This document shows positions 28,595 through 35,252 of a DNA stretch of 45,990 bases, piece by piece. This DNA is from Gammaproteobacteria bacterium (GTDB taxonomy: Bacteria; Pseudomonadota; Gammaproteobacteria; Ga0077536), in the NCBI GenBank assembly GCA_009692265.1, contig SHZM01000022.1, positions 1-45,990 of the forward strand. Reading direction: 5' to 3'. Position numbers and translations under genes: made by a program. The notes under the pieces are model-generated. The model was not told the DNA's origin. It saw only the letters and a program-made list of their open reading frames with translations, and searched no databases. How positions within the stretch are numbered: the stretch's first letter is position 1; every line of letters starts with the position of its first letter.

Positions 28595-29212
28595 ATGTAT
28601 TTCGCCACTGCCGACGGTCTGCGTCCAGCGCCTCTTAAACATAATCCCGTTAACGCGCTGGTGATGCCGCGACCGATCGGCTGGATCAGCTCGATGTCGG
28701 CGCGCGGCGGTTTAAATCTAGCACCGTTTTCTTACTTCAACGCGGTGTGTGCTGAACCGCCCTATGTAATGTTTGCGCCGAATTCGGCGAGACCAGGAGT
28801 TAATAAGGATACGTATCGGAATATCTGCGAGGTTCCGGAATTTGTCGCGAACTTTGTCGGCGAGCACGATCTACAGGGGATGAACGCGACCTCCGCGCCG
28901 CTGCCGTACGGTGAGGATGAATTCACCGCTTGTGGGATTGAAGCTGTGGCATCACGCCTAGTGAGGCCCCCGCGAGTTGCCACTGCACTGGCTGCGTTTG
29001 AATGTCGCGTCTACGAAGTAGTGCACTTGCCGGTAGGCGCGGACGGCCGCGCGAGCCATGTTGTGATTGGTGAAGTCGTCGGGATTTATATTGCCGACGA
29101 CGTGATCGTCGACGGTAAGGTCGACGAACGATTGCTAAAACCGGTCGCTCGTCTCGGCTATATGAACTACAGCACCCTGGGCGATGTCTTTGAGCTGTTG
29201 CGTCCACAGTAA
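28595..29212 (+). CDS. Flavin reductase-like (FMN-binding split-barrel) protein
   Basis: The 205-aa sequence fits the flavin_reduct family: NPVNALVMPRPIGWISSMSA, LAPFSYFNAVCAEPPYVMFA and KDTYRNICEVPEFVANFVG are its characteristic first third. HVVIGEVVGIYIADDVIVDG and LKPVARLGYMNY close the barrel. Such proteins bind FMN and either reduce flavin for two-component monooxygenases or act as oxidoreductases. There is no partner monooxygenase in the window. It is divergent from the secreted-protein gene and lies upstream of a pentapeptide gene. Confidence 0.88.
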   Translation: MYFATADGLRPAPLKHNPVNALVMPRPIGWISSMSARGGLNLAPFSYFNAVCAEPPYVMFAPNSARPGVNKDTYRNICEVPEFVANFVGEHDLQGMNATSAPLPYGEDEFTACGIEAVASRLVRPPRVATALAAFECRVYEVVHLPVGADGRASHVVIGEVVGIYIADDVIVDGKVDERLLKPVARLGYMNYSTLGDVFELLRPQ

Positions 29213-29348: not shown

Positions 29349-29690
29349 ATGAACGACAAACCGCGGATCAGCGATTGCCCGATGTATCGCCTGCTGCGTA
29401 CGAGCGAGGTGTCGGATTTTAATGCTCGCAGACGCCAGGGTGAAGCTTGCGATCTCGTGGGGACCGATCTCAGTCGCTTGGATCTACGTGGCCTGGAAGC
29501 GAGCGGCCTGGATCTGCAGGACTGCTATTTTCGAATGTCGGATTTGCGGGGAATCGACTTTCGAGCCGCGAACCTTGAAGGTGCGAGTTTTGCGCAAGCC
29601 CATGTCTCTGGTTGCTATTTTCCGACCGAGCTTCGGGCTGACGAACTACAACTTGCGTTAGAGCACGGAACTCGTGTTCGTTACCGGTGA
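29349..29690 (+). CDS. Small pentapeptide-repeat protein
   Basis: TAGGAG six bases before ATG 29349 supports the start. The 113-aa protein has A(D/N)LxX-type repeats from about residue 38 to 88 (LSRLDLRGLEASGLDLQDC, LRGIDFRAANLEGASFAQA), enough for a short right-handed beta-helix. The termini are ordinary. Small pentapeptide proteins in proteobacteria are poorly characterised; this one is too short to resemble Qnr. It faces the nitrile-hydratase operon convergently. Confidence 0.75.
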   Translation: MNDKPRISDCPMYRLLRTSEVSDFNARRRQGEACDLVGTDLSRLDLRGLEASGLDLQDCYFRMSDLRGIDFRAANLEGASFAQAHVSGCYFPTELRADELQLALEHGTRVRYR

Positions 29691-29768: not shown

Positions 29769-30125
29769 TCAGTGCAGGTGGTCGTGATCTTCGTGATCAT
29801 GATGCTCGGTCTGCGCCGCGCTCATCGCCGAGCACGCCGATTGTAGTTGCGCCGGGTCGACCAATCCGCGCGCCGCGACTAGCTTTTCTGTCGCCATTAA
29901 CCAGAGTTGATAGTAAGGGGTCTCACTGGCCCGCTCGCGATCGGCCGCGATCTCGCCGGCGAGCGTGGCCACCCATTCCTGCCATTCAAAGCAACCCTGT
30001 TGGTGGAGATGAACCACCAGCGCGAACGCTTTCGCTTCCCAGGGCGCCGCGAAGACCGCACCGTCGTCGTCTCGCGGGAGACCGGGGAGCACGCCTAGGT
30101 TTGGTAACGAAGAAGTTGCGGCCAT
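29769..30125 (-). CDS. Nitrile hydratase accessory (activator) protein with His-rich tail
   Basis: The 118-aa protein resembles the N-terminal part of NHase beta subunits. It has the accessory-protein signatures LPGLPRDDDGAVFAAPWEAK, AFALVVHLHQQGCFEWQEW and ETPYYQLWLMATEKLVAARG. Such proteins (P14K, NhlE and related) assist metal loading and maturation of the alpha subunit. The C-terminus ends in a histidine/aspartate cluster (HHDHEDHDHLH), a likely metal-binding tail, consistent with delivery of cobalt. ATG follows the TAG of the preceding gene without any gap, and GGAG within that gene provides the ribosome site. Last gene of the operon. Confidence 0.88.
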   Translation of the reverse strand: MAATSSLPNLGVLPGLPRDDDGAVFAAPWEAKAFALVVHLHQQGCFEWQEWVATLAGEIAADRERASETPYYQLWLMATEKLVAARGLVDPAQLQSACSAMSAAQTEHHDHEDHDHLH

Positions 30126-30473
30126 CTAGCGGGGCTCCATGTAGTCGTCCCATACGTCGACCAACAGCGCATCTTTCGGATTGCCTTGCGGACCCCACAG
30201 TTCGCGCGCGGTGAACCGCACACTGTACACATGCTGCGGCTTCTTTCCCGTGCCGGAGGCGAAAGTATCCGGGAACACGAAGATGCCGTGGTCACGATCG
30301 ATCACGCCCTGCTTCCCACGAATATAGCGCGGCATTCGCGTATGGCCCGATGGATTGATATTTAACACAACGACCTCATCACCGGCCTTAAAGCGTGGCG
30401 CTGATCCTTCTGCCTCGCGCGAACTTGCACCTGCGAGCGCGGCACCTAGGGCTTGTACTAGATTGATGGCCAT
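30126..30473 (-). CDS. Nitrile hydratase beta subunit, separate C-terminal half
   Basis: This 115-aa protein equals only the C-terminal SH3-like half of an NHase beta subunit: APRFKAGDEVVVLNINPSG, HTRMPRYIRGKQGVIDRDHG (arginine-rich segment that packs against the claw-setting cysteines), FVFPDTFASGTG, PQHVYSVRFTARELWGP and VDVWDDYMEP. It has its own start. ATG 30473 overlaps the stop of the N-half gene as TAATG, and AAGGA lies 8 nt upstream, so translation is coupled but independent. The first ~25 residues (MAINLVQALGAALAG...) are additional. Same architecture as the alpha subunit of thiocyanate hydrolase and one of the ToyKL pair. A single-base sequencing error is unlikely to create both the ribosome site and the TAATG. 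Confidence 0.88.
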   Translation of the reverse strand: MAINLVQALGAALAGASSREAEGSAPRFKAGDEVVVLNINPSGHTRMPRYIRGKQGVIDRDHGIFVFPDTFASGTGKKPQHVYSVRFTARELWGPQGNPKDALLVDVWDDYMEPR

Positions 30474-30784
30474 TAGACCGGTCCTTGCGCGATTTGCTGA
30501 CGACGCGTCGTCAACTCGCTTTGCGTAAGCACACCTTTTTCAACCAGCAAGGTTTCATAGGCGAACAGCCAGTGCTCGTAATACGAGGTGTTGAGATACG
30601 CCGGCGCGCCCATGCGCTCGATTGCGTGGCGCAATTCATCGACACCGAAGGCACCGGTCGCGGCGAGCGGGAGAAACATGCCGAAGACGCGCCGCTCCCA
30701 CGCGTGGTGAAACACTGGCTCGTTCTTCTCGACGACTATAGGACCCAGGCCGTGCATGCCCCCTAAATCATGAATGCCATTCAT
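30473..30784 (-). CDS. Nitrile hydratase beta subunit, separate N-terminal half
   Basis: This 103-aa protein matches the N-terminal half of NHase beta: MNGIHDLGGMHGLGPI, FHHAWERRVFGMFLPLAATG, DELRHAIERMGAPAYLNTSY and YEHWLFAYETLLVEKGVLT. Arg52 is in the position of the beta-Arg52 that contacts the oxidised cysteines in cobalt NHases. It ends right after QQIAQGPV, where normal beta subunits run on to the C-half. A near-perfect ribosome-binding site (AGGAGGT, 5 nt spacing) precedes ATG 30784. The start lies 14 bases after the alpha gene. Confidence 0.88.
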   Translation of the reverse strand: MNGIHDLGGMHGLGPIVVEKNEPVFHHAWERRVFGMFLPLAATGAFGVDELRHAIERMGAPAYLNTSYYEHWLFAYETLLVEKGVLTQSELTTRRQQIAQGPV

Positions 30785-30798
30785 AGGTGACCTCCTCG

Positions 30799-31401
30799 CT
30801 ACTTGCCGGGCGCGGCGACTTTCGCCACACCGATCATCGCATCACGGCTAACGAGCTCCGCGAGTTGCGCTTCGCTCCAGCCCTCGGTACCGGCCGGACG
30901 TTCTGGCAACACCATGTATCGCAACTCCGCCGTGCTGTCCCACACTTTGACCTTGACCTCGTCCGCGACCTCGGTTCCGAACTCTTTCAACACGCCACGC
31001 GGATCAATGACCACCCGCGAGCGATACGGCGCGGACTTATACCAAACGGGTGGTAAGCCCAAAGTCGGCCAGGGATAGCACGAGCACAAAGTGCACACGA
31101 GCACGTTGTGGACTTCCGGTGTGTTCTCCACCACCACCATGTCTTCACCTTGGATTCCGCTGTAGCCGAGTTCCAGGATCGCCTTGGTCCCATCAGCGAG
31201 CAGGCGTTGCTTGTAGGCGGGATCGGTCCATGCGCGGGCGACAACCTTCGCACCGTTACGCGGACCGACTTTGTGCTCGTAGGTGTCGATCAAGGCGTCC
31301 ACCGCGGCCGGATCGACAAGGCCTTTTTCGATCAATAGCGTTTCGAGCGCTTTGACTCGAATTTCAATCTCACTCAGCGGCCGGGTGTGATTTTCTCCCA
31401 T
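30799..31401 (-). CDS. Nitrile hydratase alpha subunit, cobalt type
   Basis: The alpha subunit carries the metal and hydrates nitriles to amides in the cytoplasm. At 200 aa it has normal length. The claw motif is [17 protein letters not shown] with Cys103, Cys106, Ser107 and Cys108; Thr in CTLCSC is typical of cobalt enzymes, whereas iron enzymes have CSLCSC. Upstream are [16 protein letters not shown] and [16 protein letters not shown]; downstream [19 protein letters not shown] and [24 protein letters not shown] nine bases before ATG 31401 supports the start. It follows the amidase by 18 bases. In thiocyanate hydrolase the gamma subunit has the same motif, so that activity is the main alternative, although the adjacent amidase favours nitriles. 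Confidence 0.93.
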
Positions 31402-31419
31402 GGTTTTAAGCTCCTCGGG

Positions 31420-32943
31420 TTACTTCGTTTGTTTCCAGTCGAACGCCTGCTCGAAGGCATGGGAGGCGCGCAAAATCGTCGTTTCGGAAAAATGCCGTGT
31501 CACGAGCATCATGCCGATCGGCAAACCCTGCGACATCGCACAGGGGATGTTCATGGCCGGGTGCCCTGTCACGTCGAACGGACTCGTATTCGGCAACATT
31601 TCGAGCGCCCGCGCGCAGTACTCTTCGCGGCTCGCAGTCGGAGCCGGGATCTTGGTTGCTTTCAATGGCAACGTCGGCATCAACAATAGATCGACCTGCT
31701 CAAACGCCGCGTCATACGCGGCGCGCAGGCGACGAGCCAGATTTTGCGCTTTGGCGTAAAAGCGTCCGTGATACTTCTGTTGCAGATATTCACCGGTGAG
31801 CAGTACAAGTTTAGTGGTCTCCGACAGATCGTTTGGCCGTGTCTGCCAGCCACGCGCGAAGGCATCTAACAGGCTCGTCGTGTAATGCCCTTTCCAGTTG
31901 GTGCCCATCGAGTTGCCTTTGAGCATGAGCTGGGTCGCGCCTTCGACCGCGATACCGGTCCAAATATGCTGACCATCGCGATGCCATGGGATCGAGACTG
32001 TCGAGACCACCGCGCCAAGTTGTTCGAATCGGCCCGCAGCGACGCGTACCGCGTCGTCCACATCGGGTTCCGACAGTCCCGCCCAGCCGAAGCCTTCCGG
32101 GACGATTCCGATCCGTAGGCCTTGAATGTTGCCGGTCAACGCTTTTGTGTACGCGGCGGTTTTCACTGCGTACTGGCGCGGATCGAGGCCATCCTCACCC
32201 GCGATTACTTCCAGTAACAGGGCACAATCGGCGGTTGTGCGCGTAATCGGTCCTAAGTGATCGAGCGTGGCTTCGATCGGAAACGCGCCGGTGTAGGGGA
32301 CCAAGCCGTGGGTGGGCTTCAATCCATAGACGCCGCACCATGCCGCCGGAATTCGAATCGAGCCACCTTGATCGCCGCCGATCGCCATGTCGACATGGCC
32401 TGCCGCGACCAGCGCCGCGCTGCCAGCCGACGAACCCCCGGTGGTACGCGTTAGATCATAAGGATTCAAGGTCGGGCCGTTATCGGTAGTATGACTACCG
32501 CCCGAAAAGCACAGGCTTTCGCAATCAGCCTTGCCGACGATTTCACCACCGGCGTCCAAGATCCGCGTGACCAGGGTTGCGTCGATCTCGGGCACATACC
32601 CTTCAAGCACCGCGGTGCCATTCATCATCGGCACGCCAGCGACGCAAATATTGTCTTTAATCGCGATAGTCTTACCTTGAAGTGGCCCGCGTCTAGCGCC
32701 TTTAATCGCGCATTTGTAATACCAGGCGTTAAGTGGATCCTCGTCGCGATCGGGGCGATAGCCTGGGGCGCGCGGATATTTCACCGGCAAGCTTGGTTCG
32801 GGTAACTCCTGCAAACGCTGGTAGGAAGCGAGGGTTCCAGCCATCAGGCCTTGAAACGACGCTAAATCAGCCTCGCTGCAATCGAGTCCGAAATGCTGCG
32901 CCAGGGTATCGATCTCTTCGAGGGTCGGTGTTTTCACGATCAT
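31420..32943 (-). CDS. Amidase, amidase-signature family
   Basis: Amidase-signature enzymes hydrolyse amides with a Ser-cisSer-Lys triad. All parts are visible: IAIKDNICVAG (Lys96), TTGGSSAGSAALVA (cis-Ser region 169-176) and GGDQGGSIRIPAAWCG (nucleophile Ser195). Length about 507 aa with an N-terminal helical extension, like the enantioselective amidases linked to nitrile hydratases in actinobacteria and pseudomonads. ATG 32943 is chosen because GGGAG lies six nt upstream; ATG 32949 abuts that site. Placed directly before the NHase alpha gene, it would complete nitrile to amide to carboxylate plus ammonia. Confidence 0.93.
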   Translation of the reverse strand: MIVKTPTLEEIDTLAQHFGLDCSEADLASFQGLMAGTLASYQRLQELPEPSLPVKYPRAPGYRPDRDEDPLNAWYYKCAIKGARRGPLQGKTIAIKDNICVAGVPMMNGTAVLEGYVPEIDATLVTRILDAGGEIVGKADCESLCFSGGSHTTDNGPTLNPYDLTRTTGGSSAGSAALVAAGHVDMAIGGDQGGSIRIPAAWCGVYGLKPTHGLVPYTGAFPIEATLDHLGPITRTTADCALLLEVIAGEDGLDPRQYAVKTAAYTKALTGNIQGLRIGIVPEGFGWAGLSEPDVDDAVRVAAGRFEQLGAVVSTVSIPWHRDGQHIWTGIAVEGATQLMLKGNSMGTNWKGHYTTSLLDAFARGWQTRPNDLSETTKLVLLTGEYLQQKYHGRFYAKAQNLARRLRAAYDAAFEQVDLLLMPTLPLKATKIPAPTASREEYCARALEMLPNTSPFDVTGHPAMNIPCAMSQGLPIGMMLVTRHFSETTILRASHAFEQAFDWKQTK

Positions 32944-32961
32944 CGTCATCTCCCTTGGAGC

Positions 32962-33414
32962 CTAATTCGCACACTCAAAGACTTGGTACTCGACTCGGCC
33001 ATTCCTGACTCGGCCCTGGCCAACGGCCATTACCCGATTAAGCCATTTGTAGCGCTCGTCACCGGTCTCGAAACGCGGCTGCGAGAAAAAGTGCTCGTCG
33101 CCGTAGTCGGTCGAGCCGGTCCCCGCCAACGCCTCGGTTAAATTATCGGACGCGACCAAGCGACCGAAATACTGCACGTAGATGACGGCACCGTCGTGGG
33201 TTTGGAAGGTCGCCCGTACATCAAGATGACCGACCCCGTCCGCATCGAACAGCAGCCAGTCCCCACCGCCGGTTAAAATTTTGCCATTCAGGCGTGCTCC
33301 TTCAAACGCGCCTCCGATGACCTCGAAAATCGCGCGCTGACCATAAGGCCCCAGACCGACCGCGACTGGTGCTTTTAATTCGGCGTAATACGTCATCAAG
33401 GGTTCCAGGCGCAT
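32962..33414 (-). CDS. DUF3237 family protein
   Basis: The 150-aa protein shows the DUF3237 pattern: LEPLMTYYAELKAPVAVG, GPYGQRAIFEVIGGAFEG, LNGKILTGGGDWLLFDADG, LDVRATFQTHDGAVIYVQYFG and a closing WLNRVMAVGQGRVRNGRVEY. DUF3237 proteins form small barrels and occur in aromatic and amide degradation loci; their activity is not established. GGAG eight nt before ATG supports the start. It is the first gene of the six-gene minus-strand operon ending with the NHase accessory gene, so it is probably linked to nitrile or amide metabolism. Confidence 0.85.
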   Translation of the reverse strand: MRLEPLMTYYAELKAPVAVGLGPYGQRAIFEVIGGAFEGARLNGKILTGGGDWLLFDADGVGHLDVRATFQTHDGAVIYVQYFGRLVASDNLTEALAGTGSTDYGDEHFFSQPRFETGDERYKWLNRVMAVGQGRVRNGRVEYQVFECAN

Positions 33415-33591: not shown

Positions 33592-34746
33592 ATGGCGATG
33601 TCCGCTGCTCCCCCTCCACCCTGCTCTGTCGTTGGCATCGTCGGCGGCGGCCAACTGGCGCGAATGATGGCGGAAGCTGCGGCAGATATTGGGCTCGAAG
33701 TCATCGTCCTCGACCCCACCCCCGACTGTCCGGCCCGCGAATTTGCCGGGCAAATCGTGGGCGAATTCGATGATCGCGCTAAACTCGCCGAACTCGCACG
33801 ACGCTGTGATGTAGTGACCTTGGACATCGAAGCGGTGCATGCCGAGAGCTTAACGATTCTCGAACAAAGCGGGACACGCGTCGCACCGGGCGCGCGCGTG
33901 CTGGGGATAATTCAAGACAAACTCTTACAGAAAGAATTCCTTCGCCAGCATGGGCTGCCTACCAGCGAATTCGCGGCGGTGGGAAACGGTAATTCAAGCA
34001 TCGTCGCGTTTGGATTGCCGTGCGTGGTGAAGGCGCGGCGTCATGGTTACGACGGCCGTGGGGTCAAGGTCGTGCGCGAACTCCACGACGCGGCGGACCT
34101 ATTGGCAGCGCCGTGCATGGTGGAGCGTCTCGTTAACATCGACAAGGAACTGGCGACCATGGTGGCGCGTAATGCACGGGGCGAAATCGCGCACTACCCT
34201 GTGGTGGAAGCAGAATTCGATGCGCGGGCCAATATTCTCAATATCATTCAAGCGCCGGCACGGATTAGTGCGAAAATCGCGTCGCAGTGTACAGAACTGG
34301 CGAGGCGGATCGTGACCGCAATTGAGGGTGTCGGGATTTTTGGAATTGAATTTTTTCTTGATCGCAACGGCCAGCTTCTAGTTAATGAAATTTCGCCACG
34401 GCCGCATAATTCAGGGCATTACACCATCGAAGCCTGCGCGACCTCGCAATTCGAACAACACCTGCGCGCTGTAACCAATCTACCCCTTGGCCCGACGACC
34501 TTGGTGCACCCGGCGGCAAGCTTCAATCTGCTAGGTGAGCCCAGTGCCTTTGGGATACCAAACATCACTGGCCTGGATGTCGCGGCAGCGACTCCAGGGG
34601 CCGCGGTTCATCTCTACGGAAAGCATAGTGTGAAACCATTTCGTAAAATGGGTCATGTCACTGTCACCGGTAAAACGCTCGAAGCCGCCCTGTCATCGGC
34701 GCAAGCGCTAAAACAAGTCGTCAAAGTCATGGGGCATCCGCCATGA
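33592..34746 (+). CDS. purK: N5-carboxyaminoimidazole ribonucleotide synthase PurK
   Basis: PurK converts AIR, bicarbonate and ATP to N5-CAIR in purine synthesis. The ATP-grasp features are visible: [98 protein letters not shown] and [16 protein letters not shown]. Length 384 aa is typical. GAGG precedes ATG 33592. The stop overlaps the purE start by 4 bases (ATGA), so the two are co-translated in the order purK-purE, reversed relative to E. coli purEK. Confidence 0.96.
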
Positions 34747-35252
34747 AGAAAATACCTGCACCATTGATTGGCGTCATCATGGGCAGTAAATCGGATCTGC
34801 CGGTGATGCAAGCGGCAGTCGAACTCTTGAGCGAATTCGCAGTGCCGCACGAGGTGACGATTGTGTCAGCACATCGCACTCCGAAGCGGATGGTGGAGTA
34901 TGCCGAAACCGCACACGGACGCGGGCTGAAAGTCATCATCGCTGGGGCCGGCGGTGCCGCGCATTTACCGGGCATGACAGCATCCCTAACGACCTTGCCC
35001 GTGATCGGTGTGCCTGTCGCGGTGACCGTATTAAATGGCATGGACGCGTTACTTTCGATCGCTCAGATGCCAGCCGGAGTGCCTGTCGCAACCGTTGCGA
35101 TCAACAACGCGAGCAACGCGGCTCTACTCGCGCTCCGTATCCTTGCGCTCAGTGACAAGCGAATCGCGCGCAGACTCGTAGCGTACAAGCGTGGCTTGGA
35201 AGGCAAGGTACTTGCCGCGGCGAATGATTTGGAAAATTCGCCAGCGCGCTAA
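34743..35252 (+). CDS. purE: N5-carboxyaminoimidazole ribonucleotide mutase PurE
   Basis: Class I PurE (169 aa) rearranges N5-CAIR to CAIR. Motifs: [31 protein letters not shown] (active-site His), [15 protein letters not shown] and [21 protein letters not shown]. The usual GVPVxSKxLNG reads [11 protein letters not shown], a small departure. ATG 34743 overlaps the purK stop by four bases. The MOSC gene starts 31 bases after it and may be in the same transcript. Confidence 0.96.

Follow-up and report, generated by a model that had tools for sequence, protein, structure and literature searches.

The cobalt-type nitrile hydratase (NHase) of Pseudomonas putida NRRL-18668 (3QXE) is described with the gene order alpha-beta-P14K, its accessory protein P14K acting by self-subunit swapping (PMC3511329), and its beta subunit is a single gene with a Gly/Ala-rich linker. 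Three-chain NHases are already known from Streptomyces rimosus and Streptomyces canus. The enzyme of S. canus CGMCC 13662 is described as an active three-chain cobalt complex, AnhD2E2A2, in which AnhD and AnhE are the N and C parts of beta and are both required for activity, the free beta N-chain AnhD also doing the job of an activator (PMC7329996). The toyocamycin NHase of S. rimosus, ToyJKL, has three subunits, two alpha-beta-gamma trimers joining into a heterohexamer (PMC8574189); PMC7329996 cites a report that its alpha is active by itself. A plasmid-encoded NHase of Microvirga flocculans (PnhF) consists, according to a review, of one alpha and two beta subunits, the alpha gene lying between the two beta genes (PMC11573777). 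Thiocyanate hydrolase (SCNase) likewise carries its equivalent of beta on two chains with related folds, and is the only enzyme with three structural genes among the six gene organisations of another review (PMC7193024). The subject of this report is an NHase operon on the minus strand (33414-29769) of a 45,990-nucleotide stretch of gammaproteobacterial DNA (assembly GCA_009692265.1, contig SHZM01000022.1, lineage Ga0077536), the whole of which is called the window below; in this operon beta is divided between two genes, betaN and betaC, for its N- and C-terminal domains.

With the P. putida enzyme the operon shares the alpha-first order and the clade, differing in the two genes for beta. The division of beta into N and C chains is shared with S. 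canus, where, however, the order is betaN-betaC-alpha and no activator was found, whereas the window has alpha first, a dedicated activator and an amidase. SCNase belongs to another alpha family and another clade, and its order is betaN-betaC-gamma in the four loci examined. By their published descriptions, ToyJKL and PnhF have three subunits as well, the gene order of PnhF being different. As far as the accessible texts go, the layouts described for the three-chain NHases of S. rimosus and S. canus differ from that of the window, and no account of a P. putida-type alpha-betaN-betaC-activator layout was found in the accessible open-access literature, outside of which most subscription papers lie. 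The alpha-first layout with an activator and a split beta appears to be a new form among the known NHases. Judging from its sequence, the operon very probably encodes a P. putida-type NHase with a two-gene beta, its three chains being predicted to form one cobalt enzyme that would convert a nitrile into an amide, which the amidase would then likely hydrolyse.

Two genes for one beta subunit

The operon consists of six genes in the same direction (DUF3237, amidase, NHase alpha, betaN, betaC and accessory; Table 1), spaced in that order by 12, 18, 14, -1 and 0 nucleotides (nt). The original prediction, which a model had made from the letters of the window, was accurate in the coordinates and lengths that it gave for a six-gene minus-strand operon with a TAATG junction and an AAGGA site for betaC. 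BetaN aligns to residues 1-95 and betaC to residues 114-218 of P. putida beta (3QXE_B), so that together the halves make one whole beta, broken at the inter-domain linker. Each half matches its own part of the beta model TIGR03888 (132.5 and 120.9 bits), the cut-off of 152.2 for a single beta not being reached.

In TAATG the A that ends the betaN stop codon also opens the betaC start codon, and AAGGA lies within the end of betaN, 8 nt ahead of the betaC ATG. Comparable loci were drawn from 126 collected clusters, reduced to 120 by dropping 6 incomplete ones and to 99 non-redundant rows by dropping 21 repeats with identical domains. A one-base TRATG overlap is present in 37 of the 48 non-redundant NHase-type split loci (27 TGA, 10 TAA), and 33 of these 37 have a Shine-Dalgarno sequence ahead of betaC (one of GGAG, GAGG and AGGA at 4-16 nt from the ATG), compared with 7.4% of 7183 control positions taken from these genes at matching codon phase. 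The junction looks selected. Among ten loci of the window's clade, whose synonymous distances are often large or saturated, the median ratio of nonsynonymous to synonymous substitution (dN/dS) over unsaturated pairs was 0.09 for alpha (38/45 pairs), 0.10 for betaN (20/45) and 0.22 for betaC (40/45), values that argue for purifying selection on both halves.

The active site appears intact across the division. BetaN Arg52, Glu56 and Tyr68, betaC His44 and Arg46, and the alpha claw (CTLCSC, starting at residue 103 in the window) are invariant in all 48 split and all 42 fused rows, and betaN Trp72 is kept in 48/48 and 41/42, respectively. Beta residues R52 and R157 are described as contacting the claw in Pseudonocardia thermophila (PMC7193024, PMC12646544), and beta His 147 of P. 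putida, with beta Glu56, is named an important second-shell residue (PMC8278588). BetaC Arg46 aligns to P. putida beta 149 and P. thermophila beta 157 (alignments to 3QYG_B and 7W8M_B), and betaC His44 aligns to P. putida beta 147. The two claw-contacting arginines are thus present as betaN Arg52 and betaC Arg46, and their retention on separate chains, claimed in the original prediction, extends to every split row. The AlphaFold single-chain model of betaC (mean predicted local distance difference test score, pLDDT, 87.8) has 3QYG_B as its top match in the PDB (template modelling score, TM, 0.83), and the first PDB matches of the betaN model (pLDDT 76.6) are NHase beta chains. For alpha, the best single-stretch PDB match is P. 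putida 3QXE_A (329 bits, alpha residues 5-194 aligned). The best solved relatives of the amidase, 3A1K (E 4.3e-154) and 3A1I (E 1.2e-153), are both named Amidase. With the active-site residues kept and an amidase akin to these, the reading first proposed, in which three chains form a cobalt-type enzyme that works together with the amidase, remains the best.

Table 1. Genes of the NHase operon and the betaN/betaC junction (positions in the window; aa, amino acids)
Feature	Position	Strand	Characteristics
DUF3237 (UPF0311) protein	32962..33414	-	150 aa; PF11578 152.9 bits; first gene of the cluster
Amidase-signature amidase	31420..32949	-	509 aa; PF01425 320 bits, NF005565 799.2 bits; predicted hydrolase of the amide product
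Nitrile hydratase alpha	30799..31401	-	200 aa; PF02979 306.2 bits; TIGR01323 319.8 bits (cut-off 249.85)
Beta N-domain chain (betaN)	30473..30784	-	103 aa; PF21006 135.1 bits; Arg52, Glu56, Tyr68, Trp72
Beta C-domain chain (betaC)	30126..30473	-	115 aa; PF02211 114 bits; His44, Arg46
Nitrile hydratase accessory (activator) protein	29769..30125	-	118 aa; TIGR03889 75 bits (cut-off 46)
BetaN/betaC junction	30471..30486	-	AAGGA 30486-30482, 8 nt, TAA 30475-30473, ATG 30473-30471

Relatives of the operon and family assignment

The window's type is uncommon overall and common among its closest relatives. In the best 80 loci of 344 relatives in a bacterial and archaeal genome collection, a sample biased towards the window, beta was split in 43 and fused in 33, the other 4 loci being incomplete; stand-alone relatives of each half were also found, in searches that exclude much longer proteins and in which fused ones are therefore not countable. 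A phylum sample of 398 genomes contained PF02211 in 58, the window's own included, and its 60 other PF02211 loci comprised 51 fused, 8 split in the order betaN-betaC-alpha and 1 split with alpha first. Four further members of the window's genus with a full match (L112-L115) are all split with a one-base junction, a fifth (G003) giving no match, and PF02211 is present in 28 of 36 genomes of its family, where split and fused forms both occur. Split loci are found in cultured strains, e.g. Rhodopila globiformis, Vineibacter terrae, Pseudomonas graminis and Paraburkholderia dilworthii, the one-base junction being present in cultured-strain loci that include L028, L063, L073 and L081. Complete plasmids also carry split halves that share one base (L259-L261). 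The complete Aminobacter MSH1 plasmid pUSP2 has the order amidase-nthA-betaN-betaC-activator-CbtB-CbtA, with halves sharing one base; substrain MK1 is described as lacking this plasmid (PMC8460812). Rhizobium pMK-2 and an Agrobacterium vitis plasmid (L260, L261) have both halves in their DNA with a one-base overlap, but their gene table, which is incomplete and omits pseudogenes, goes straight from nthA to the accessory gene. A cyanobacterial plasmid has two beta chains without overlap.

Other arrangements were noted among the relatives. One locus (L078) has alpha, a tandem pair of betaN genes, betaC and an accessory gene, and in two others (L034, L075) the operon is adjoined by a second beta-like gene. 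A three-gene betaN-betaC-alpha type (L140-L143, L162), found in the window's family and beyond, is placed between SCNase and NHase in the tree and possibly resembles the S. canus or ToyJKL systems.

By sequence, alpha is that of a P. putida-type NHase. It scores 319.8 bits against the NHase model TIGR01323, above its cut-off, and 194.7 bits against the SCNase gamma model TIGR03887, below the cut-off of 291.45. In a tree of the 99 rows (alpha and both beta domains), the four SCNases stand apart on a long branch, as a group with support of 100. A tree of 70 rows was made by removing 29, picked after the first tree had been viewed (nine betaN-betaC-alpha split, five betaN-first fused, seven more that were long or distant, and eight near-copies); it places the window in a clade of 10 rows, all split (support 100/99), inside the P. 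putida-type clade. The beta of one tree row (L077) is near-identical to 3QXE_B. Clade and gene order agree with the P. putida type (alpha-beta-activator), and the single-gene beta of that type is lacking; the operon departs from the S. canus type (betaN-betaC-alpha, no activator) in having alpha first and a TIGR03889 activator. The original prediction had allowed that alpha might fall inside ordinary two-chain NHases with intact beta in close relatives, and had counted this against itself: alpha does lie inside a P. putida-type clade with fused members, but its nine nearest rows are all split. This leaves the split itself untouched and alters only the family to which the enzyme is assigned.

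Three other explanations of the layout were weighed against a P. putida-type NHase with a two-gene beta. That the operon encodes a thiocyanate hydrolase or a close relative is very improbable and was rejected, and thiocyanate, named by the original prediction as a possible substrate, is not supported as one: alpha exceeds the NHase cut-off and falls short of that for SCNase, the four SCNase loci (in 274 genomes) branch apart and have the order betaN-betaC-gamma instead of alpha first, and an NHase-type activator and an amidase are present, although the three chains, the match of the betaC model to SCNase alpha 2DD4_A (TM 0.77) and the weak sequence similarity that each half shows to SCNase chains do recall that enzyme. 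Another reading is that a sequencing error or a frameshift of recent date divided what is really a single fused beta gene, or one in decay; in its favour, the two halves line up with a fused beta and part at the inter-domain linker, and the absence of their genes from the L260 and L261 listings may be due to annotators reading the split as a frameshift. Yet the one-base junction recurs in the window's genus, in cultured strains and on complete plasmids, dN/dS is low in both halves, and the betaC start codon with its Shine-Dalgarno sequence is conserved along with the active site. This reading as a whole is very improbable, and a sequencing error is refuted by the relatives in other assemblies that have the same split. 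Programmed frameshifting or stop read-through, yielding some fused beta beside the short chains, would suit halves that abut directly and are collinear with a fused beta, but is improbable, since an in-frame slippery heptamer (X XXY YYZ) was found in 0 of 48 split loci within the last 60 nt before the betaN stop, and the conserved Shine-Dalgarno sequence with an overlapping ATG fits re-initiation.

Several observations weigh against the three-chain reading. The one-base overlap is absent from 11 of the 48 split loci, and betaC evolves faster than betaN, so that relaxed constraint on betaC is possible. The betaN model is weak at its N-terminal end, residues 1-30 (block means 44, 51 and 62), and fits NHase beta chains loosely (TM 0.53-0.64, root-mean-square deviation 8.5-9.2). 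In close relatives L004, L006 and L011 no amidase was found in about 6 kb of upstream sequence, so the amide step is not universal. A consensus scan found no promoter-like sites; it gave one terminator-like site, on the opposite strand, neither count exceeding those in shuffled sequences.

Split and fused states and the probable ancestor

Split and fused states are interleaved in the trees. The 70-row tree requires 4 changes of state, and approximately unbiased (AU) tests, with state labels fixed before the trees were made and the in-group bounded after they were viewed, rejected both a single clade of the 39 in-group split rows (p-AU 0.00012) and a single clade of the 22 in-group fused rows (p-AU 0.00023). 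Trees of alpha only and beta only have 7 and 5 state changes, respectively, and are less supported than the joint tree. When 49 phylum-sample loci were added to the 70 rows (11 betaN-first loci of the 60 being left out), all 43 split rows of the resulting 119-row tree fell in one 73-row clade. Under a simple two-state model on a fixed tree with a fused root, the ancestor of the 64-row part containing the window and P. putida is inferred to have been split (0.999), and the corresponding probability on the 70-row tree is 0.94-0.97; on the alpha-only tree it is near 0 with free rates and 0.97 with equal rates. A split ancestor with later re-fusions is favoured, not shown, by the concatenated trees.

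The alternative that splits at the same linker arose many times independently, the P. putida two-chain form never having been split, is plausible, though we rather doubt it. It agrees with the preference of the free-rate model on the alpha-only tree for no re-fusion, and with the Gly/Pro-rich linkers common to fused members within the clade and beyond it, which split tails rarely show. It would require at least 8 fissions on the 119-row tree, where it is 12.8 log units worse than the re-fusion model (3.2 log units worse on the 70-row tree), and the betaC start is comparably placed before P-(V/A)-L-T-like text in distant split lineages. Linker composition was considered as a clue to the direction of change and proved ambiguous: fused linkers are Gly/Pro-rich and split ones mostly charged tails, a difference that may reflect function rather than history, and the linker pattern could not be anchored in 54/57 outgroup fused, 2/48 split and 1/7 in-group fused rows, the outgroup being judged from a sequence listing. 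In a fuller picture, which is tentative and slightly less probable than not, the alpha-first three-chain NHase would be an old, stable class across Alpha-, Beta- and Gammaproteobacteria, with the two-chain P. putida enzyme a later re-fusion, betaN both a structural chain and an activator-like chaperone, and cobalt loaded by swapping the small chains singly.

Proposed working, genomic context and significance

In the proposed working of the enzyme, all six genes would be on one transcript, and a ribosome finishing betaN would re-initiate at betaC by means of AAGGA at the TAATG junction, coupling production of both chains. BetaN and betaC would clamp alpha, with Arg52 and Tyr68 of betaN and Arg46 of betaC reaching the oxidised claw, so that the active site forms only once all three chains meet. 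The accessory protein, which has a His/Asp-rich C-terminal tail (HHDHEDHDHLH) and is also a homologue of beta-N (PF21006, 42.9 bits in a Pfam profile search), would load cobalt by exchanging alpha, as P14K is reported to do in P. putida. Because betaN and the accessory protein both belong to PF21006, they could bind alpha in turn, and free betaN might share the cobalt-loading role, as AnhD does in S. canus. The amide would be passed to the amidase, the net effect being release of the nitrile nitrogen as ammonia, and the CbtA homologue of the genome would serve cobalt.

The genome encodes a single NHase alpha and a single homologue of the CbtA cobalt transporter; no NicO cobalt transporter was matched, by a search that detected 5 of 14 controls, and the lack of a match to aldoxime dehydratase (PF13816) does not establish its absence, the controls being equally silent. 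Five CN_hydrolase (nitrilase superfamily) genes are also present. Among the non-redundant rows, a DUF3237 match lies within 4.5 kb on the same strand in 9 of the 57 that are split and in none of the 42 that are fused (contig ends cut some loci), and an amidase match is nearby in 20 of 57 and 20 of 42, respectively. Solved relatives of DUF3237 are named uncharacterised or UPF0311 protein, besides one marginal match to PhnH, and a literature search on DUF3237 found no paper whose title or opening of the abstract links it to NHase. Convergent with the operon are a flavin-reductase-like gene (28595-29212, plus strand) and a pentapeptide-repeat gene (29349-29690, plus strand), each nearby in 7 of 12 loci compared. 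The divergent genes upstream (33592-35252, plus strand), which we take to be like purK and purE, were found upstream in 5 of the 12 loci, the window counted.

Such enzymes are easily overlooked in annotation, their halves being called SH3-like proteins (pUSP2 and the cyanobacterial plasmid) or left unlisted (L260, L261) in four plasmids. A much-used industrial enzyme family occurs in two forms, with two chains and with three; the change from one to the other happened more than once, at a single conserved position and with the active site retained. Whether a linker is needed, in what order the chains assemble and how beta relates to its activator can therefore be tested directly.

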